Source: Solidesulfovibrio carbinoliphilus subsp. oakridgensis | GTDB lineage: Bacteria > Desulfobacterota > Desulfovibrionia > Desulfovibrionales > Desulfovibrionaceae | NCBI RefSeq assembly: GCF_000177215.2 | Contig: NZ_CM001368.1 | Location: 2,294,001-2,358,000, forward strand | DNA length: 64,000 bases | Direction: 5' to 3' | The notes under the pieces: model-generated | The model's database searches: none | The model's input: the letters and a program-made list of their open reading frames with translations, nothing else | Told to the model about the DNA's origin: nothing | Part shown: positions 22,187 to 61,735 of the stretch, in pieces | How positions within the stretch are numbered: position 1 is the first letter of the stretch | Layout: each line of letters opens with the position of its first letter | Made by a program: the position numbers and the translations under genes

Positions 22187-22229
22187 CGGGGGGTCCGGGG
22201 GGGATGATCCCCCCCGGCCGCCGGAGGCC
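22187..22229. repeat. Palindromic GC element, copy B
   Basis: Core CCGGGGGGGAT-G-ATCCCCCCCGG (22195-22217), flanked by CGGGGGGT and the GGCCGCCGGAGGC tail. Its first 42 bases are identical to copies D and F. It lies 23 bp past the DUF1800 stop. Confidence 0.9.
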
Positions 22230-52579: not shown

Positions 52580-54952
52580 TCACCTGCCGTAGAGCCGGCC
52601 GTACATCATGGCGTTGGCCGTGATGCGCCGCACGTAGTCGCGCGTCTCGGTGTAGGGAATGAGCTCCGTGAAAAGCTCCTCGCCAAGGGGCGCCAGGTGG
52701 CGCACCCAGATGGCGGCCCGGTTCTCGCCGGCGTTGTAGCCGGCCAGGGCGGCCGCCAGGCTCCCGGCCCGACCCAGGCGTTCGCGGAAAAAGGCCACAC
52801 CCAGCCGGATGTTGACCATCGGATTGAAAAGATCCTGGCGTTCCGCCCGGATGCCGATCTTTTTCCCCACCGTGCGGGCCGTTTCCGGCATGAGCTGCAT
52901 GAGCCCGACCGCGCCCGCCCCGGACACCACCAGGGGATCGAAAAAACTCTCCTGCCGGATCAGCGAATAGACCGTGTCAGGACGGATGTCCGACCCGGCC
53001 AGGGCCGCCTCCACCTGGGGCGCGTAGGCTCGGGGATAAAGGGCCTGGCGCAGCGGGGCCAGGTCCTCGGCCGTGCCGCGCAAGAGGCACCCGCCAAAGG
53101 TCCGCCAGGCCGTCTGGCTGACCGCCCCCCGCCGGCCCATGGCGGCCGCGGCCTCGATGTGGGCCATGGCCAGGTCGGCCCGGGCCGGCTCGGCCCGGGC
53201 GGCGAATTCCAGCTCCATCTCGGCCAGGGCCGGCAGTCCGGCGCCGGAGAGGGTCCGGGCCTTGTCCAGGGCGGCCTCGGCCGTGGCCGAGGGCTCCTCG
53301 ATGCGGCCCGGGCAGCGCGGCGCGCTTGTGACCGGCGAGGCGGCCACGGCCTGCTCCGACAGCCCGAGCCCGGCCAGGGCGGCCCGGGCCCGGCCGCCGT
53401 AGTAGGTGTTGGGACGCCGGGAAAGGGCTTCGAGCCAGACGGCGGTGGCCTCGCTTGGCCGCCCCAGGACGAGCAGGGCCCGGCCGCGCCAGTAGCGGGC
53501 CCCGTCGGCCCAGTCGTCGCCCGGGAACCGGCGGATGAACGCGGCCATGTCCTCGGCCGCGCCCTCCATGTCCCCGACCACGTAGCGCAGGACCGCGGCC
53601 AGGGACGCGCCCTGGGCGGCCAGATCGGCCGGCACGGCCAGACCGCGCAACTGCCCGGCGGCGGCCAGGGCGTCGGCGAAACGGCCGCGCTCGGCGAGCA
53701 GCAGGGCCAGATGCCGGGCCGCGGCCTCGCGCAGGGGATCGTCTCGGACGGGAGCGGCCAGGACCTGGCGGAGCAGGGCCTCCATGCGGTCGATATCCTC
53801 CGGCTCGAAGGACCGCCACAGACAGCGGGCCTCGTGGTAGCGGGCCCAGCCGGAAAGCGACGCAGCCGGATCGGCCGCGGCCACCCGGCCGAAGGCCTCG
53901 GCCGCCGCCTTGAACCGCCGCAGCCGGTAAAGCGCCTTGCCCCGGACATATGCCGCCCGTAACGCCTGCCCGGCGTCAAACCCCCGCGTATTGTCCAAAA
54001 GCGTGAGCGCGTCCTCGGGCCCGGCCTTCTCGGCCATCTTCTCGGCCCGCATGAGCACATTCCCCGGCGCATCCGGGTCATAGCACATCCCGGCCGTCCC
54101 CACCCCGGCCCCTTCCCCCCTTTCGGGGGGTCCGGGGGGGATGATCCCCCCCGGCGGGTCCAGGGCAGCGCCCTGGCCGCCGGAGGCATCCGGGGCCACG
54201 CCCTGGCCGCCGGAGGCATTCTTCCAGGCATTGTTCCCGCATATCGTCCTCGCCAGGGCGTTGCCGGCCACGGCGGAGCGGGAGGCCGGCCAGGTCAGCG
54301 ACAGATGGCGCAGGAAATCCGCCGCCTTGCGGTCCTGGCCGAGGCCGTCGGCGGCCACGGCGGCCCGCAGCCAGACCTCGGGGGCCAGCGTCGGGTCGGC
54401 CTCGGTGAGCCAGGATTCGGCCAGGGCCAGGGCGGCCCCGTGATCGCCGCGCCGGGCCGCGCTCTCAAGGGCCAGATAGAGGGCGTCCCGGCCGAGAAAC
54501 GATCCGGCCGGAGTGGCGGCGAGCGCGGCCAGGGCTGCGCCGGCTCCGGCCGGGTCGTCGGCCAGATAGAGGCCAAGGCCCCGGTAGTAGGCGGCCACGT
54601 CGGCGAGCGTCCCGGCCTGGGCGGCCGAGGCGGCCAGCCGGGCGGCGCCTTCCGCATGCCGCCCGGCCAGGACCTCGGTTGCGCCCAGGGCCACCTCGGC
54701 CGCACCCGGCCGGCCGGGTCCCCTTGGCCCGGCCGGGGTCCTGGCCGTTTCCGGGCCCGAGGCGGCCAGCCTGGCCGACCGGGGGAGCGGGATGTCGCCG
54801 GGTTTGCGCGGCGGCTCCCAGGCCGCGGCCTGGCCGGCCGGGCAGGACCCTGGAAGCGTCAGGCCGCCGAGGGCCAGGACCAGGAGCAGGACCAGGCCGG
54901 ACACAACCAAACCAAATCGATCGGAGAAACGCTTTATTCCCGCCCTGGTCAT
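52580..54952 (-). CDS. Lytic transglycosylase (Slt70-like) with in-frame palindromic-element insert
   Basis: 790 residues. A short N-terminal membrane anchor or signal (about 12-35) is followed by a long alpha-helical, Ala-rich superhelical region and a C-terminal SLT domain (about 640-790). The catalytic Glu lies in YSLIRQESFFDP, followed by GAVGLMQLMPETA and AALAGYNAGENRA. It cleaves peptidoglycan between MurNAc and GlcNAc. Oddly, residues about 245-277 (ASGGQG, SGGQGAALDPPGGIIPPGPP-type) are encoded by palindromic GC element I and have the same Gly/Pro-rich composition as other copies; the superhelix is otherwise continuous on both sides. It ends convergent to cheW. Confidence 0.9.
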   Translation of the reverse strand: MTRAGIKRFSDRFGLVVSGLVLLLVLALGGLTLPGSCPAGQAAAWEPPRKPGDIPLPRSARLAASGPETARTPAGPRGPGRPGAAEVALGATEVLAGRHAEGAARLAASAAQAGTLADVAAYYRGLGLYLADDPAGAGAALAALAATPAGSFLGRDALYLALESAARRGDHGAALALAESWLTEADPTLAPEVWLRAAVAADGLGQDRKAADFLRHLSLTWPASRSAVAGNALARTICGNNAWKNASGGQGVAPDASGGQGAALDPPGGIIPPGPPERGEGAGVGTAGMCYDPDAPGNVLMRAEKMAEKAGPEDALTLLDNTRGFDAGQALRAAYVRGKALYRLRRFKAAAEAFGRVAAADPAASLSGWARYHEARCLWRSFEPEDIDRMEALLRQVLAAPVRDDPLREAAARHLALLLAERGRFADALAAAGQLRGLAVPADLAAQGASLAAVLRYVVGDMEGAAEDMAAFIRRFPGDDWADGARYWRGRALLVLGRPSEATAVWLEALSRRPNTYYGGRARAALAGLGLSEQAVAASPVTSAPRCPGRIEEPSATAEAALDKARTLSGAGLPALAEMELEFAARAEPARADLAMAHIEAAAAMGRRGAVSQTAWRTFGGCLLRGTAEDLAPLRQALYPRAYAPQVEAALAGSDIRPDTVYSLIRQESFFDPLVVSGAGAVGLMQLMPETARTVGKKIGIRAERQDLFNPMVNIRLGVAFFRERLGRAGSLAAALAGYNAGENRAAIWVRHLAPLGEELFTELIPYTETRDYVRRITANAMMYGRLYGR
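54124..54219. repeat. Palindromic GC element, copy I (in frame inside the transglycosylase gene)
   Basis: The full element (54124-54189; CGGGGGGT, core CCGGGGGGGAT-G-ATCCCCCCCGG, an inner hairpin CCAGGGC-AGC-GCCCTGG and the tail GGCCGCCGGAGGCAT) is followed by a partial second copy (to 54219). Both lie within the transglycosylase coding sequence without breaking the frame. Confidence 0.9.
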
Positions 54953-55140
54953 GGCGTAATTCCCTACCTTGTCATGCGAGAAACGGCTAGTTTACTAGAT
55001 GTGTGAAAGAAACAGAACCCTTGACTTCACGTGAAAATCGTGACTAACAAGCACGAGTTTACACGGTCCGCTTGCGTCATCAGGGCGTCGCGATCCTGGA
55101 CGCGAGCCCTGCGCGTCTTCCACCCGTCAAGGAGGTCGGT

Positions 55141-56409
55141 ATGTCCTTCGCGCAGTCCTGGGATTTCACGCCGGGCGCCCGCGTCGTTCTCGACGATCTG
55201 CGAAAGTGCTCGCGTGAATACGAGTGGCTGGAGGAACCTTACGTCTCGCCCGACGGCGAGACCGTGGCGATGGTCGCCGCTTTGCCGGACGCCGAATTTT
55301 CCCTGGCGGTCAACGGTGAAGTTTGGGAACAAACCTTTGACAAAATCTGGTATCCCCGCTTTTCGCCGGACGGCCGGCTGACAGCCCTGGTCCAGTCGGC
55401 CGGGGAATGGACCATGGCCGTGGACGGCGAACCCTGGGAAGACCAGTACGGCTACATCTGGGGCACGCTTTTCTCCAAGGCCGGGGACGTGATCGCCGCC
55501 CCCATCCAGGTGGACGGCAAGTACGGCCTGGTTTCCAATGGCGTAGCCTGGGAAACCCTCTATGACAATGCCAACCAGGTCGTCCTGTCGGCCGACGGCA
55601 GCGCCACCGCCGCCGTGGTCCAGGTCAAGCCCCTGGCCCAGGCCGACATCGAGACCTTCCAGCAGGGCATCTTCAGCGTGGCGGTCAATGGCGTCGCCTG
55701 GGACTCCATCTTCGTCAACTGCTGGAATCCCGCCTTCGACCCGGCCGGCAAGCACGTGGCCACCACCATCCGCCGCACCCTCTACGACTACTCCATCGCC
55801 GTGGACGGCAAGGCCTGGACAGGCGCCTACGCCTGCGCCTGGGCCCCGGTCTTCCATCCGGCCACCGGACAGGTGGCCGCGCCCGTGCGCAAGGCCGGAG
55901 CCTGGGGCATGGCCGTGGACGACGTCATGGCCTGGGAGCCCCGGTTCACCCAGATCTGGCATCAGGCCTACAGCCCGGACGGCGCAATCCTCGCCGCCAT
56001 CGTGGCCCCGAAATTCGGCGAATTCACCGTGGCCATCGGCGGCCAGCCCTGGGACATCACCTTCCCAGTGGTCACCGATCTGGTCGTCAGCCCCCAGGGC
56101 GGCCGGGTGGCGGCGCTGTCGAGCGAGAACAACGCCAATTTCGCGGTCATCTGCGACGGCAAGGTCTGGAACGGCCGCTACGACATGGCCTGGCCGCCGG
56201 TCTTCAGCCCCGACGGGAAGCATCTGGCCGTGACCGTGCGCCAAGGCGGCAAGTACACGGTGCTGTGCGACGGCAAGGCCTACGCCCAGAGCTTTGACCG
56301 GTGCTTTGACCCGGCCTTTTCCCCGGACGGGACCCACGTCCTCATCCGGGGCATCGCCGACGGCAAGGTCTATCGGATCGTGGCCCCGGTTACCGCCTTC
56401 ACCGGCTAG
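55141..56409 (+). CDS. tmcD: Tmc complex subunit D, Trp-rich repeat protein
   Basis: 422 residues beginning MSFAQSWDFTPGARVVLDD. Repeats of about 45 residues with VNGVAWDSIF/VDGKAWTGAY and PVFHPATG/PVFSPDGK-type strands look like a beta-propeller with tryptophan in each blade. The start has AAGGAGG upstream. It is the first gene of tmcDCBA; TmcD has no known cofactor. The order is reversed relative to the usual tmcABCD naming but the gene set matches that described in Desulfovibrio. No signal peptide is visible, so it probably acts on the cytoplasmic side. Confidence 0.9.
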   Translation: MSFAQSWDFTPGARVVLDDLRKCSREYEWLEEPYVSPDGETVAMVAALPDAEFSLAVNGEVWEQTFDKIWYPRFSPDGRLTALVQSAGEWTMAVDGEPWEDQYGYIWGTLFSKAGDVIAAPIQVDGKYGLVSNGVAWETLYDNANQVVLSADGSATAAVVQVKPLAQADIETFQQGIFSVAVNGVAWDSIFVNCWNPAFDPAGKHVATTIRRTLYDYSIAVDGKAWTGAYACAWAPVFHPATGQVAAPVRKAGAWGMAVDDVMAWEPRFTQIWHQAYSPDGAILAAIVAPKFGEFTVAIGGQPWDITFPVVTDLVVSPQGGRVAALSSENNANFAVICDGKVWNGRYDMAWPPVFSPDGKHLAVTVRQGGKYTVLCDGKAYAQSFDRCFDPAFSPDGTHVLIRGIADGKVYRIVAPVTAFTG

Positions 56410-56418
56410 GAGGGAGAC

Positions 56419-57078
56419 ATGCACGCGCTTTACGATCTCGCCGTCGGCCCCCTGGCCTGGCTCGCCTTCGGCGTCTTTATCGTCTGTTCCGTCTACCGGC
56501 TTTTGGCCATGCGGGCCCTGGCCTTCCGCAAGGAAAAGGCCTTCGTGGCCTACATCAGCTGGCCCCACGCCATCAAGTCCCTGACCCACTGGTTCACCCC
56601 CTTCGGGGCCCTGGGCTGGAAGGAAAACCCGGGCGTCACCGTGGCCACGTTTCTTTTCCACGTGTGCCTGTTTCTGGTGCCCCTTTTCCTCATGGGCCAC
56701 ATCGTGCTCTTCGACACCTTCCGGGGCTGGTCCTGGCCGGCCCTGCCGGGGGCCCTGGCCGACGGCCTGTCCATCCTGGTCGTCCTCATCTGCGCCTACT
56801 TCCTGTGGCGGCGCATAAGCGTCCCGGAAGTCCGCTTCGTCACGAGCACCCAGGACTGGGTGGTGGTGTCCCTCGTGGGCCTGACCTTCCTGACGGGCGT
56901 TTTGGCCTATCATCGCATCGGCGACAACCTGGTTCTCACCACCCTGCACATCCTGTGCGGCGAGGCCATGCTGGTCGCCATCCCGTTCACGAGGCTCTCG
57001 CACATGTTGTTCGCGGTCTTTTCCCGCGGCTACATCGCCTCGGAATTCGGGTCCGTCAGACACGCCAAGGACTGGTAG
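56419..57078 (+). CDS. tmcC: Tmc complex subunit C, membrane cytochrome b-type protein
   Basis: 219 residues with about five hydrophobic segments and several His residues (HALYDL, WPHAIKSLTHW, LFHVCLFL, HIVLFD, YHRIG, LHILCG) placed for b-type haem. It is the quinone- or membrane-embedded part of the Tmc complex. It lies 9 bp downstream of tmcD, with AGGAGGGAGAC upstream. Confidence 0.92.
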   Translation: MHALYDLAVGPLAWLAFGVFIVCSVYRLLAMRALAFRKEKAFVAYISWPHAIKSLTHWFTPFGALGWKENPGVTVATFLFHVCLFLVPLFLMGHIVLFDTFRGWSWPALPGALADGLSILVVLICAYFLWRRISVPEVRFVTSTQDWVVVSLVGLTFLTGVLAYHRIGDNLVLTTLHILCGEAMLVAIPFTRLSHMLFAVFSRGYIASEFGSVRHAKDW

Positions 57079-57093
57079 CCACCGGAGGACGCC

Positions 57094-58413
57094 ATGAGCA
57101 CCATTGCCGATCGCCTCATCGAGGACACGGGCCTCAGGCGCGGAGTTTCCCGCCTGACCCCGGAGAAGATAGAAAAGGTATTCAAGGAACTGATCGCCGG
57201 CGAATGCGGCGCACGGCTCAAAACCTACGTCGAGACCTGCGTGCGCTGCGGCATGTGCGCCAAGGCCTGCCACTACTACATGTCGCACAAGGACCCGAGC
57301 TACACCCCCGTGGCCAAGGTCAGCCAGACCATGTGGAAGCTTCTGGCCGCCGGCGGCCGGGTCGACCCGGAGCTCATCTACCAGTGCGCCCAGATCGCCT
57401 ACACCGAGTGCAACCTCTGCCGCCGCTGCATCCACTACTGTCCGCTGGGCATCGACACCGGCTACATCATGAGCGTGGTGCGGCGTCTTTGCCACAAGCT
57501 CGGCTGCACCCCGCAGTACATCCAGGACACCGCCCACAGCCACTCGGCCACCATGAACCAGATGTGGGTGAAAGACGACGAGTGGCCGGACACCCTGCAA
57601 TGGCAGGAGGAAGAGGCCCGCGAGGAATTTCCCGGGCTTCGCATTCCGCTCGATGTCGAGGGCGCGGACTTCATGTACTCGGTCATCGCCCCGGAACCCA
57701 AGTTCCGCACCCAGCTCATCTACCAGGCGGCCGCCATCTTCAACGCCGCCGGCCTGTCCTGGACCATGCCGGCCACGCCCGGCTGGGACAATTCCAACAT
57801 GGCCATGTTCTCCGGCGACGCCGAGATCATGTCCCGGATCGAACGCGCCCACTACGAGACGGCCCAGCGCCTGCGCGTCAAGCGCATCGTCATGGGCGAG
57901 TGCGGCCACGCCTTCCGGGCCGTCTACGACGTGGCCAACCGCTGGCTCGGCTGGAAATGGACGCCCGTGCCCATGGTCCACTCGGTGGAGTTCTTCTGGG
58001 AGCTGATCCAGGAAGGCCGCATCAAGCTGACCCGCAAGTACGCCGATCCCGTCACCATCCACGACCCCTGCAACATCATCCGGGGACGGGGCCTGACCGA
58101 AAAACTGCGCGACGTGGTCCACTTCCTGTGCGACAACGTCGTGGAAATGCACCCCAACCGGGAGCACAACTACTGTTGTTGCGCCGGCGGCGGCGTCATC
58201 AACTGCGGGCCTCCGTTTAAAAACGTCCGCATCGTCGGCAACTCCATCAAGGCCGAGCAGCTGAAGGCCACGGGCGTGCACACCCTGGTCGCTCCCTGCC
58301 ACAACTGCCACGGCGGCCTGGAAGACATCATCAGCAAGTTCGACCTTGGCATGCACACCAAGTTCCTTGGCGACCTCATCTATGAGCTCATGGAGAAGCC
58401 CGAGGCCGAGTAA
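57094..58413 (+). CDS. tmcB: Tmc complex subunit B, Fe-S/CCG protein
   Basis: 439 residues. The N-terminal ferredoxin part has CVRCGMCAKACHYYM and CNLCRRCIHYCPLGID, a two-cluster arrangement. The C-terminal half contains two CCG-like domains: HDPCNIIRGRG with NYCCCAGGGVINCG, and a later APCHNCHGGLED. These resemble HdrD/DsrK-type catalytic regions that bind a noncubane Fe-S cluster. It is likely the catalytic, cytoplasmic subunit. It follows tmcC by 15 bp. Confidence 0.94.
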   Translation: MSTIADRLIEDTGLRRGVSRLTPEKIEKVFKELIAGECGARLKTYVETCVRCGMCAKACHYYMSHKDPSYTPVAKVSQTMWKLLAAGGRVDPELIYQCAQIAYTECNLCRRCIHYCPLGIDTGYIMSVVRRLCHKLGCTPQYIQDTAHSHSATMNQMWVKDDEWPDTLQWQEEEAREEFPGLRIPLDVEGADFMYSVIAPEPKFRTQLIYQAAAIFNAAGLSWTMPATPGWDNSNMAMFSGDAEIMSRIERAHYETAQRLRVKRIVMGECGHAFRAVYDVANRWLGWKWTPVPMVHSVEFFWELIQEGRIKLTRKYADPVTIHDPCNIIRGRGLTEKLRDVVHFLCDNVVEMHPNREHNYCCCAGGGVINCGPPFKNVRIVGNSIKAEQLKATGVHTLVAPCHNCHGGLEDIISKFDLGMHTKFLGDLIYELMEKPEAE

Positions 58414-58437
58414 CCCCGGCGCGCAGGAGAAACCGCT

Positions 58438-58827
58438 ATGAAAAGACGCTCGAAAACGTCCCTGCTCCTGGCCCTGCTCGCCGCCGCGTTCCTGGCGGTT
58501 CCGGCGCTCGGCCAACAGGACATGACCACGGTTCCGGCCGAGGGCTTTGCGGCCAAGACGCGCCAGCCCGCGCGTTTCGCCCATGACGCCCACAACGAAA
58601 AGGCCGGCCTTTCCGACTGCACGACCTGCCACCACGGGGAAAAGGACGGCAAAAAGGACCCCACGGCCGATACCTCCGGCGTGCCCTGCTCCGACTGCCA
58701 TACCGCCGCCGCCAAGTCCGGCCGCACCCCGCTCATGCGGGCCTACCACAAGCAGTGCATGGGCTGCCACCTGGCCCAGAAAAAAGGCCCCGTCACCTGC
58801 GGCGACTGCCACGAGCCGGTGAAATAG
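58438..58827 (+). CDS. tmcA: Type II tetraheme cytochrome c3
   Basis: 129 residues. The signal peptide covers about 1-25 ([17 protein letters not shown]). Four CxxCH haem motifs (CTTCH, CSDCH, CMGCH, CGDCH) and additional His axial ligands (HDAHNE, AYHKQ) follow. The protein is periplasmic and passes electrons from periplasmic hydrogenases or cytochromes to the Tmc membrane complex. It lies 24 bp after tmcB with CAGGAG upstream. Confidence 0.96.
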
Positions 58828-58837
58828 GGGGAAAAAC

Positions 58838-58899
58838 CGGGGCTCTGCCCCGGACCCCGCCGGGGGGAATCATTCCCCCCGGACCCCCCGAAAGGGGGC
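58838..58899. repeat. Palindromic GC element, copy J (compound)
   Basis: CCGGGGC-TCT-GCCCCGG is followed by CGGACCCCG and the core CCGGGGGGAAT-C-ATTCCCCCCGG, then GGACCCCCCG. It lies 10 bp after the tmcA stop. Confidence 0.9.
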
Positions 58900-58938
58900 G
58901 CGGGACGACGCAGCCCCGCGCCAACACGATCCTTGCAG

Positions 58939-58968
58939 GCGCGGCCGGGAAACCGGCCGCGCTTTTTT
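58939..58968 (+). terminator. Rho-independent terminator of the tmc operon
   Basis: GCGCGGCCGG-GAAA-CCGGCCGCGC is followed by a run of six T. It lies after tmcA and element J, 50 bp before the next gene. Confidence 0.9.
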
Positions 58969-59017
58969 ATCTTCTGGAACGGGTCTTGCTTCGCTGCCGG
59001 CAACACAAGGAGCCCCC

Positions 59018-59923
59018 ATGCGCCATTGTCCGGTCCGGGTCCTGGCCCTGCTGTGTCTTGCGGGCCTCCTGGCCGCCGCCCCGACGCCGGTCCAAGCCCA
59101 GGAGGACCGGGCCGGCCCGCCCGTTGCCGCGCCCGTTTCGCCCCCCCTGGCCCCGGTTTCTCCCGCACCCGGCGCCGACGGATCCGGGGCCGTGCGGCGT
59201 CAGGTTTCCGACGCAAGGGCCTTCTCCACCACCTCCACCTGCTTCTACGGCCCCCAGATGGACCAGGGACAGGCCAAACGGCTGTGCGCCGACCAGACCC
59301 GGGCCAAGCTCCTGGACGCGGCCGCCGGAATCCTGGCTCCCGAGCCGGCCGTGGCCGCGGCCCGGCTCTCGCCGGGAGACGTGCGGGCCTTTGTCGACAG
59401 CCTGCTGCGGGTGGCCGTGGCCGACGAGGAGGTACGGCCGGCGGCCGACGGCCTGGCCGTGCGCTTGACCCTTCGGGCCGAGGCCCCGGCCGACACCCTG
59501 GCCGAACGGCTGGCCGCCTTTGCCGCCAACCCCGAACTGCGCGCCGCCGCCCTGGCCGAGACCGCCGCCCGGGACAGGCGCGCGGCCGAGGCCCGGCTGG
59601 CCGCCGTCCCTTTTGGCGCGGACCGGGAGTTCCGGGCCCGGGAAATCCGGGAAGGGATGCGCGAGGACGCGGCCTTTGCCGCCCGGCAGGTGGTGCCGGG
59701 CATGTCCATGGCCGGGGTCAAGGAACTCCTCGGCAATCCGCCGGCCATGAAGCAGGCGGTCATCGGGCCGGAGTCCTACGTCTGCGCCGGGTACGGCCGC
59801 GTCTGGGTCGTCTTCCGGGACGGGCTGGTCTCCTGCCTGCGCACCCGGCTCGATTATGTGGCCCGGTACGGCACCGACTGCCACTGCGCCGGAAACTACG
59901 CCACCATCCTCAAAAACGACTGA
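59018..59923 (+). CDS. Secreted protein, BamE/SmpA-like C-terminus
   Basis: 301 residues. The signal peptide covers about 1-28 (LALLCLAGLLAAAPTPVQAQ). A Pro/Ala-rich stretch is followed by a Cys-containing segment (STTSTCFYGPQMDQGQAKRLCADQ) and an Ala-rich helical middle. The C-terminus (about 225-300: VPGMSMAGVKELLGNPP, VCAGYGRVWVVFRDGLVSCLRTR) resembles the small-protein A/BamE fold. Function unknown; possibly envelope assembly. It lies alone after the tmc terminator. Confidence 0.7.
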   Translation: MRHCPVRVLALLCLAGLLAAAPTPVQAQEDRAGPPVAAPVSPPLAPVSPAPGADGSGAVRRQVSDARAFSTTSTCFYGPQMDQGQAKRLCADQTRAKLLDAAAGILAPEPAVAAARLSPGDVRAFVDSLLRVAVADEEVRPAADGLAVRLTLRAEAPADTLAERLAAFAANPELRAAALAETAARDRRAAEARLAAVPFGADREFRAREIREGMREDAAFAARQVVPGMSMAGVKELLGNPPAMKQAVIGPESYVCAGYGRVWVVFRDGLVSCLRTRLDYVARYGTDCHCAGNYATILKND

Positions 59924-60023
59924 GCCGGGTCCGTCTTGACAGGTGCCCCGCGCGGCAGATAGATAAACCGTGCCGTAAAGCTCCCCCCCTCGACATTTCC
60001 CTTCACCATCAGCCGGAGGAATT

Positions 60024-60437
60024 ATGAGGGCTCTCATAGTTGACGACGATTTTTACAGCCGCAGCTTTCTCGAATACATTCTGCACCCCTATGCCCGGTG
60101 CGATGTGGCAGTCAACGGCGAGGACGCGGTCATGGTGTTCAAAAAGGCCCTGGAGGCCGGGGAACCCTACGCCCTTGTCTTCATGGACCTGCTTATGCCC
60201 GTCATCGACGGTCCCCGGGCCCTGAACGAAATCCGGGAGATCGAAAAAGACTTCGGCCTGGACCACGACGGACGCTGCAAAATCGTCATCACCTCGGTCC
60301 TCGAAGACGGCGAGGAAACGCACAACGCCATGTACCTCGGCGGCGCGACCTCGTTTCTGCAAAAGCCTGTCGACGAAAAGTCCATTCTGGCCGAGTTGAC
60401 GCGACTGGGCTGCATCACGCCCGAAGCGGAACGCTGA
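60024..60437 (+). CDS. Single-domain response regulator
   Basis: 137 residues: only a receiver domain, with acidic Asp8/Asp9 (LIVDDDFYSR), the phospho-acceptor Asp in LVFMDLLMPVIDG and the conserved Lys in LQKPV. The start ATG has GGAGGAATT upstream. No output domain, so it acts by protein-protein contact (CheY-like or as an adaptor). No kinase gene is adjacent. It is followed by a strong terminator. Confidence 0.92.
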   Translation: MRALIVDDDFYSRSFLEYILHPYARCDVAVNGEDAVMVFKKALEAGEPYALVFMDLLMPVIDGPRALNEIREIEKDFGLDHDGRCKIVITSVLEDGEETHNAMYLGGATSFLQKPVDEKSILAELTRLGCITPEAER

Positions 60438-60438
60438 G

Positions 60439-60475
60439 GCGGGCGGCCCGGCCGCCCGCCTTTTCCTTTTTTTAA
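60439..60475 (+). terminator. Rho-independent terminator after the response regulator
   Basis: GGCGGGCGGC-CCG-GCCGCCCGCC followed by TTTTCCTTTTTTT. Confidence 0.92.
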
Positions 60476-60520
60476 CGTCTCCCGCCTTCCCGCCGCCCGG
60501 CACATGCCGTATGCTGCGGC

Positions 60521-61735
60521 ATGCGCAAACGCCTGATCCTGGCCGGCGGCGGCCACGCCCACCTGCACACGCTTTCGCGGCTCGACCTTTTCCACGCCGC
60601 CGGCATCGACGTTACCTGCGTCGCCCCCACCCCCCACCTCGCCTACTCCGGCATGGGCCCGGGCATGCTCTCGGGCCGCTACGCCCCGTCCGACCTGCGC
60701 TTCGATATCGAGGCGATGGCGGGGAGGCGAGGGGAAAAGATGCTTCCGGCGGCCGGGGGGGATCATCCCCCCCGGCCCCCCCGGGCGGGGAAAGACGGGG
60801 CGGACGGCGAGGGGACGCTGTCGGGATTCATTCGGGGGGCGGTGGTCCGGGTGGTGCCGGAGGAGAGGCGGCTGGTGCTGGAGGACGGGCGGGAGCTTAC
60901 CTACGACGCCGTGAGCTTTGGCCTGGGCAGCCGGGTGGTGGTGCCGTTTCCGGTGGAGACCAGTCCCCGAACGGCCGTTTTTCCGGTGAAACCCATCGAG
61001 AACCTGCTGGCCGCCCGGCGGCACATCGAGTCCCTGGCCGAGGCCGGACCGGTGCGGGTGCTGGTGGCCGGCGGCGGCCCGTCCGGGTTCGAGGTGGCGG
61101 CCAATGTCCTCGGGCTTTTTGCCAGCTGCGGCGTGAAAAAGCCGCTGGTGGCCGTGGCCGTCGGGCGCGGGCTCTTGTGCGGCTGGCCGCGCCGGGCCCG
61201 CCGGGCGGCCATACGGTCGCTGCGGCGCCGGGGAGCCCGGATCGTCTGCGGCCGGGTGGTGCGGCTGGCCGGCGGCCGGGCCCAACTGGCCAGCGGGGCC
61301 CACGAATCCTGCGACGTGCTGCTGGTGGCCACCGGCACCCGGCCGCCGGAACTCTTCTCCCGCTGCGGCCTGGCCCTGTCCCCGGACGGGGGACTGACCG
61401 TCAACGCCTTCCTGCAAAGCCCGATGCACCCGGAGATCTTCGGCGGCGGCGACTGCGTCCAGTTCGGCCCCCGGGAACTGCCCCGGGCCGGGGTCTACGC
61501 CGTGCGCCAGGGGCCGATCCTGTGCGCCAACCTGCTGGCCTATCTGACCGGCGGCAAACTCCTGCCCTTTCGCCAGACCGGCACCAACTTCCTGGCGCTT
61601 TTAAACTGCGGCGACGGCCGGGCCATTTTGCGCAAAGGCCCCTTCGTCTTCGAAGGGGCCTGGTGCATGGCCCTCAAGGATTGGATCGACCGGGGTTTCA
61701 TACAGTCGTTTCCGCCCCGGCGTCCTCCGGCCTGA
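60521..61735 (+). CDS. NDH-2-like FAD-dependent pyridine-nucleotide oxidoreductase with in-frame repeat insert
   Basis: 404 residues. The FAD-binding N-terminus is LILAGGGHAHLHTL. A second dinucleotide fold follows at about residue 183 (VRVLVAGGGPSGFEVAANV), with VATGTRPPEL and a GGGDCVQF late motif. Enzymes of this family oxidise NADH or act on selenide or sulfide; the family cannot be narrowed here. Residues about 74-90 (LPAAGGDHPPRPPRAG) are encoded by palindromic GC element K and interrupt the fold between the first FAD strand region and FIRGAVVRV. The 3' end overlaps the convergent PEP-synthase-like gene by 38 bases. Confidence 0.85.
   Translation: MRKRLILAGGGHAHLHTLSRLDLFHAAGIDVTCVAPTPHLAYSGMGPGMLSGRYAPSDLRFDIEAMAGRRGEKMLPAAGGDHPPRPPRAGKDGADGEGTLSGFIRGAVVRVVPEERRLVLEDGRELTYDAVSFGLGSRVVVPFPVETSPRTAVFPVKPIENLLAARRHIESLAEAGPVRVLVAGGGPSGFEVAANVLGLFASCGVKKPLVAVAVGRGLLCGWPRRARRAAIRSLRRRGARIVCGRVVRLAGGRAQLASGAHESCDVLLVATGTRPPELFSRCGLALSPDGGLTVNAFLQSPMHPEIFGGGDCVQFGPRELPRAGVYAVRQGPILCANLLAYLTGGKLLPFRQTGTNFLALLNCGDGRAILRKGPFVFEGAWCMALKDWIDRGFIQSFPPRRPPA
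60739..60790. repeat. Palindromic GC element, copy K (in frame inside the flavoprotein gene)
   Basis: GATGCTTCCGGCGGCC, core CCGGGGGGGAT-C-ATCCCCCCCGG, GCCCCCCCGG. It is translated as a Pro/Gly-rich insert without breaking the frame. Confidence 0.9.

Follow-up and report, generated by a model that had tools for sequence, protein, structure and literature searches.

A GC-rich repeat of several hairpins, akin to the repetitive extragenic palindromes (REPs), has landed in a few genes of the bacterium Solidesulfovibrio carbinoliphilus subsp. oakridgensis and, in the reading that we favour (probability about 0.8), has been kept in frame, translated, tolerated and remodelled there. The stretch analysed, hereafter the window, comprises 64,000 nucleotides (positions 2294001-2358000 of contig C1) of a genome of 4,221,670 bases in 3 contigs, coded G000. 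It holds two such copies, copy I in the gene of a lytic transglycosylase and copy K in that of a flavoprotein, and related species carry the repeat at the same sites. Two further genes of the genome, cobB and a pspF-like regulator, hold it in the linker between two protein domains, and the orthologues of all four genes bear the mark of a reading-frame filter.

Translation of copies I and K in frame had been claimed by an earlier reading made from the sequence alone (the sequence-only reading), and both open reading frames (ORFs) are indeed continuous through their element. The 4.22-Mb genome contains 236 occurrences of the 13-base core of the repeat, GGGRATSATYCCC, and none of a reversed control pattern. 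The majority consensus of 14 aligned copies (alignment A1; 13 from G000 and 1 from G050) is GC-rich and forms three hairpins, in the order 5' module GATGCCTCCGGCGGCC, hairpin 1 AGGGCnCTGCCCT, GGACCCGCC, core palindrome GGGGGGGATCATCCCCCCC, GGACC and small hairpin CCCCCCGAAAGGGGG; a short form of the repeat lacks hairpin 1. With a covariance model built on A1, at least 149 matches of 60-113 bp were found in the genome, a lower bound, the search having scored the best 150 of 12,041 first-look candidates.

The transglycosylase and flavoprotein copies

The two peptides lie close to where they had been placed: ASGGQGVAPDASGGQGAALDPPGGIIPPGPPERG of copy I covers residues 246-279 (about 245-277 in the sequence-only reading) and LPAAGGDHPPRPPRAGK of copy K residues 75-91 (about 74-90). 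In the main element of copy I the 5' module and hairpin 1 are followed by the core palindrome (54134-54152) and by hairpin 3, CCCCCCGAAAGGGGGG (54115-54130). Copy K is not among the 149 model matches and was located by its core.

Among the 14 genomes of the genus, the transglycosylase site is readable in 12 (not in G044 and G047). The insert is present and in frame in four of these (G000, G040, G049, G050) and absent from eight (G025, G039, G041, G042, G043, G045, G046, G048), as it is from both transglycosylases of other genera that align over both halves (G005, G031). The covariance model scores the copies of G040 and G049, and the shortened copy of G050 was assigned by eye; the partial tandem copy of G000 (Table 1) is missing from all three. 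The element is more alike than its flanks, with identities of 97% versus 77% between G000 and G049 (68/70 and 525/680), 93% versus 74% between G000 and G040, and 94% versus 86% between G049 and G040. The G050 copy is of a different form, with 50% identity to each of the other three. Template switching or gene conversion may have homogenised these copies. The nearest insert-free sites (G041, G048) are too diverged for a target-site duplication to be read.

The flavoprotein is related to TIGR03169 (E 5e-64, below the family cut-off), and the match to this family breaks at the insert and resumes at residue 103. Among solved structures its closest relatives are NADH dehydrogenase-like proteins; a single-sequence structure prediction reached a mean predicted local distance difference test score (pLDDT) of 39 and was not used to place the insert. 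Flavoproteins of other genera aligned over both halves were found in 11 of the 39 family genomes searched. Ten of them skip the insert (G002, G009, G010, G014, G021, G027, G031, G032, G036, G037): their alignment ends at residue 69-72 and restarts at 101-106, and the 0-12 nt lying in the gap are in every case a multiple of 3. The eleventh, from G038, is ambiguous, its pieces ending at residue 71 and restarting at 152 with 219 nt between. Within the genus (n=14), the flavoprotein carries the repeat in G000, G040, G049 and G050 and is without insert in seven genomes (G025, G039, G042, G043, G044, G045, G046); G047 is unreadable. The model scores G050 and part of G049, whose contigs end inside the repeat, and G040 was assigned by eye, on the strength of its 5' module and hairpin 1. 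At the same site G041 and G048 have about 19 residues unrecognised by the model, perhaps a decayed copy of the repeat.

For both enzymes, then, the stretch taken as an insertion in the sequence-only reading is absent from the readable orthologues of other genera (G038 being ambiguous) and from at least half of the readable genomes of the genus. The family-wide presence that would have spoken against that reading is thus not observed. The idea that it interrupts a fold that should be continuous gains no support: the flavoprotein insert falls at the break of the TIGR03169 match, and those of cobB and pspF fall between domains.

Table 1. Genes, inserts and repeat copies located in the window
Feature	Position	Strand	Basis
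SLT-domain lytic transglycosylase gene, 790 aa	52580..54952	-	PF01464, E 6e-26, residues 650-751; orthologues
Copy I, whole	54115-54220	-	Main element plus partial second 5' module; open frame throughout
Copy I, main element	54115..54190	-	Model match of 94.6 bits, genome 2348109-2348194 (window 54109-54194); alignment A1
Partial second 5' module and hairpin 1, in tandem with copy I	54191..54220	-	Sequence
Intergenic copy	58838..58905	+	Model match of 82.5 bits, genome 2352819-2352905
Pyr_redox_2 flavoprotein gene, 404 aa	60521..61735	+	PF07992, E 1e-21; related to TIGR03169
Flavoprotein insert, 87 nt, 29 residues (about 73-101)	60737..60823	+	Relative to orthologues without insert
Copy K, short form without hairpin 1	60739..60790	+	Sequence, alignment A1; open frame throughout

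The inter-domain copies of cobB and pspF

The cobB product, cobyrinic acid a,c-diamide synthase (NF002204, above cut-off), holds the repeat at about residues 236-273, between its CbiA (14-199) and GATase_3 (275-468) domains. In the pspF-like sigma-54 activator (TIGR02974, just below cut-off) it lies at about 330-362, between AAA_lid_14 (243-315) and HTH_8 (378-409). By eye, some form of the repeat stands at the inter-domain site in all 13 readable cobB genes of the genus (G044 being unreadable) and in all 14 pspF genes; the model confirmed in-gene copies in 10 of the 12 cobB loci given to it (not G047, G050) and in 11 of the 13 pspF loci (not G047, G048). Linkers vary from 81 to 255 nt in cobB and from 102 to 225 nt in pspF, where those of G025, G039, G042 and G044 (L370, L371, L367 and L373 among the loci) hold two copies side by side. 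The same model found no element in any of 18 pspF loci from other genera, whose linkers of 33-88 residues differ in sequence.

A search of the PDB with CobB returned two distant amidotransferases only, and a paralogous cobB was rejected as an empty site, its linker consisting of about 35 residues of other sequence. The G050 cobB gene (L356) contains a long C run, possibly an assembly fault, and that of G047 contains Ns, yet has a length that is a multiple of three. Draft contigs break inside the in-gene repeat of the G049 flavoprotein (L073, L081). With such breaks and runs inside in-gene repeats, gene predictions there may be wrong.

High G+C content could in principle produce Gly/Pro-rich linkers whose likeness to the repeat is one of composition alone: the DNA fetched around the copies is 68% G+C, and many pspF linkers of the family are Pro-rich. 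Near-exact core palindromes accompanied by the 5' module speak against ordinary linkers of this kind, as do in-gene model matches of up to 98 bits where none of the 18 outgroup pspF loci matches. The match scores refute this explanation for most copies, and we hold it to be highly improbable overall; it could still apply to the flavoprotein stretch of G041 and G048.

Frame keeping and remodelling

Of 34 insert-bearing orthologues that could be read, 32 keep the frame, as judged by an open frame and leaving aside the G049 flavoprotein with its contig ends: 4/4 for the transglycosylase, 3/3 for the flavoprotein, 12/13 for cobB and 13/14 for pspF. Linker length is a multiple of three in 12 of 13 cobB and 13 of 14 pspF genes among readable genus genomes. 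A multiple of three is also found in 24 of the 26 different pairs of gene and length, for which chance would give 5e-10 were the pairs independent, as those of related genomes are not. Model matches in general have such a length in 42 of 149 cases. The match lengths per se not being multiples of three, the pattern reflects selection and is not inherent in the element.

There was no support for the idea of an element evolved to keep all its frames open: 4.34 of 6 frames are open per copy, against 4.81 in shuffles and 4.43 in random pieces of the genome. Since neither lengths nor open frames are enriched, its ability to code looks like a by-product of G+C richness. As the frame is kept, we infer that the inserts are translated. 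The added peptide, rich in Gly, Pro, Ala, Ser and Arg, is probably disordered, to judge by its composition; in the transglycosylase and flavoprotein it would occupy a loop, tolerated rather than beneficial.

One observation, the stop in the G046 cobB linker, favours the alternative that the genes are broken and not translated across the insert. The frame count just given argues against this, as do the coding statistics kept in the flanks and orthologues that are mostly 59-77% identical in protein across the genus, and we consider broken genes a very unlikely explanation.

The pspF hairpin was compared across 11 genomes (10 distinct rows). Both sides change in 2 of its 11 pairs, 8 pairs are invariant, and 99% of cells are paired. 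Its covariation score exceeds that of slid structures and is reached by none of 500 shuffles; at least as many changed pairs, on the other hand, occur in 39 of 500 shuffles, and relatedness among the genomes inflates scores of this type. Paired changes are known to arise by template switching between hairpin arms. We read the paired changes as mutation bias combined with the reading-frame filter, selection on the hairpin being also possible.

These changes bear on whether the cobB and pspF copies are kept for a function, for instance by slowing the ribosome with a strong mRNA hairpin at the border of two domains or by giving the linker a useful length. The retention of some form of the repeat in all 13 cobB and 14 pspF genes despite remodelling, the position of the inserts at domain borders and the compensatory changes in the pspF hairpin are in favour of such a role. 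Against it, template switching can yield paired changes without selection, and pspF linkers of other genera reach a similar length without the element. G041 and G048 do without the transglycosylase insert, and their flavoprotein insert is unrecognisable. Moreover, four pspF genes (G040, G043, G049, G050) retain only hairpin 1 and the 5' module, with no core, as does that of G047, which contains Ns. Retention for function appears unlikely to us. A bolder and still rather unlikely proposal is that the cobB and pspF borders are standing landing places throughout the genus, where copies come, double, give way to others and change frame while some form persists in each readable genome, so that the repeat steadily rewrites linkers and is perhaps kept as an mRNA hairpin pacing the folding of two domains.

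Placement of copies in the genome

The DNA around the 149 model matches was fetched and contained 30 more cores, giving 179 copies examined of at least 236 in the genome; a codon model was trained on 188 long ORFs. Neighbouring genes are tandem for 109 copies, convergent for 61, divergent for 5 and unclear for 4, whereas 3000 points drawn at random from non-coding parts of this DNA gave 1887, 691, 331 and 91, respectively. Divergent positions, set against all others, are depleted among the copies (Fisher p 9e-5), and the 105 tandem cases of known orientation comprise 68 sense and 37 antisense copies (p 0.003). Given this tandem and convergent bias, the depletion of divergent positions and the sense excess, the repeat belongs mainly to gene ends, as PMC3733652 reports for REPs.

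Within genes, a copy was counted where coding statistics of at least 0.40 bits per codon were found on both sides in one open frame, an ORF-based test. Four of the 179 copies pass: copies I and K and those of cobB and the pspF-like regulator. The repeat is sense to the gene in the transglycosylase and flavoprotein and antisense in the other two. Three further rows, scoring 0.01 to 0.12, were left uncounted, one of them lying on the strand opposite the transglycosylase. An earlier coding test with fixed 300-base flanks proved too strict, giving 1 in-frame case and missing both I and K.

The intergenic copy of Table 1 lies between the transglycosylase and flavoprotein genes, 3' of a gene with haem-binding CXXCH motifs. 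More copies occur in the window at 22197, 25917, 29361, 29690, 48844 and 48932; the last two are close neighbours of opposite orientation. Pairs of this plus-then-minus type recur among the model matches of the genome, like REP dimers. One copy was seen on the 98-kb second contig (G000:C2:59864-59945, locus L250), which is possibly a plasmid and might carry the repeat between strains.

Occurrence in other genomes

Records of two other Solidesulfovibrio species, S. magneticus and S. aerotolerans, carry the same repeat. The exact pattern of 5' module and hairpin 1 is found in at least 120 stretches of public genomes. Among the 80 listed are Desulfovibrionaceae, Sandaracinobacter, Sandaracinobacteroides, Acetobacteraceae and a few others, some of them metagenome-assembled genomes (MAGs) that may be mislabelled. 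The covariance model matches 24 of 25 of these loci (E up to 0.001), all preselected by the pattern and one of the 24 cut by the locus end; L121 fails. Six alphaproteobacterial loci (L177, L111, L148, L128, L132 and L151, from Sandaracinobacteroides, Sandaracinobacter, Acetobacteraceae and a Rhodospirillales MAG) have the same 5' module, hairpin 1 and GGACCC, and their core hairpin differs in its letters. On these sequence matches, the Alphaproteobacteria and this genus perhaps share a cross-phylum repeat or RNA family.

At its gathering thresholds, Rfam recognised no family in six repeat loci and, in the window, only two tRNAs, and the literature searched, which covers few subscription journals, holds in the parts available nothing on this repeat in Desulfovibrio or Solidesulfovibrio. 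The common layout in Alphaproteobacteria suggests a wide REP-like family, found in neither of these sources. With one repeat copy as query, phage sequences gave no match and plasmids a single record, a Pseudoroseomonas plasmid with the copy between convergent genes. A search for the RAYT transposase (Y1_Tnp, PF01797) gave 0 matches in G000, the one genus genome searched, and matches in 5 of 14 control genomes; mobilisation by a RAYT of its own genome is thus not supported.

Weighing the reading

The repeat would multiply in the genome and survive mainly between tandem or convergent genes, near gene ends. A few copies would have landed in genes, and the survivors would be those in loops or inter-domain linkers with a frame-keeping length. 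These would be translated into a flexible stretch rich in Gly, Pro and Ser that the protein tolerates. Thereafter, hairpin modules may be lost or gained, second copies added, arms homogenised and copies left to decay, almost only the frame-keeping changes being retained. With the repeat present in cobB and pspF across the genus, and with 24 of 26 lengths being multiples of three while size, number and frame vary, the inserts appear to be old and to have been translated and reshaped under a frame filter.

Several observations weigh against this reading. In a tree of the four proteins with linkers removed (omitting G044, of low coverage), G000 is sister to a clade mixing G040, G049 and G050 with G041 and G048; the nesting of these last two, free of the transglycosylase insert, among insert-bearing genomes requires at least one loss or a repeated insertion. 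The frame in which the element is read varies among species (GGDDPP versus GGMIPPGG in cobB, and also in the flavoprotein), so a single insertion followed by point changes is insufficient. The element is not specially stop-free, its 4.34 open frames standing below the 4.81 of shuffled copies. A stop lies in the 194-nt linker of G046 cobB, and the frame is lost in G047 pspF, which contains Ns; either draft errors or real breaks would account for these two. No repeat-free cobB was seen among the 13 readable in the genus, and none was sought outside it; the CobB profile match of 454 residues over 418 positions does not prove an empty site. The similar length of other-genus pspF linkers means that the repeat may have replaced a linker and not lengthened it. 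Finally, some genes may have escaped the codon model, and the 179 copies examined leave out at least 57 of the 236 or more.

Comparison with known repeats

Translated palindromic repeats are best known from the small genomes of Rickettsia and Wolbachia. Here the same outcome is met in a GC-rich bacterium with a genome of 4.2 Mb, and up to 14 genomes of one genus display presence, absence, frame-keeping remodelling and probable decay together. With this record it becomes testable how a selfish or structural repeat turns into a protein linker.

Rickettsia palindromic elements (RPEs) measure 105-146 bp and have terminal inverted repeats (PMC2229807, PMC10969869), and nearly half of their copies lie in ORFs (PMC10969869). 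The sequence-only reading had likened copies I and K to them. The likeness holds for behaviour: both are hairpin-forming, intergenic and also found in frame inside unrelated conserved genes. It does not extend to membership, the in-gene share being 4/179 here and the GC-rich hairpins of 60-113 bp, without evident terminal repeats, belonging to another phylum, a distinction drawn from published descriptions.

REPs of the GTAG and CGTC types lie mostly between unidirectional or convergent genes, downstream of coding regions; some are intragenic, encoding 20-30 residues, perhaps in modular proteins (PMC3733652). The present repeat shares the tandem and convergent placement, the rarity of divergent sites and the presence of some copies in genes. 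Unlike them, it has neither GTAG nor CGTC on either strand of the A1 majority consensus, inspected by eye; it has a three-hairpin layout, and no Y1_Tnp gene was found in G000, which further separates it from GTAG REPs. The word Desulfovibrio is absent from the main text of PMC3733652.

ERIC and RU are likewise small repeats with open frames, known from enterobacteria and found fused in frame to genes (PMC2759123, PMC2229807). They differ in size (103-168 bp), in hosts and in resembling miniature inverted-repeat transposable elements, ERIC having a target duplication and TA ends. By eye, no terminal inverted repeats are evident in the A1 consensus. By analogy, the repeat behaves like RPEs and intragenic REPs and differs in their defining marks, and would form a separate family of a known kind. 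What is new here is this different repeat family, together with a genus-wide record of its persistence in frame and of its remodelling.

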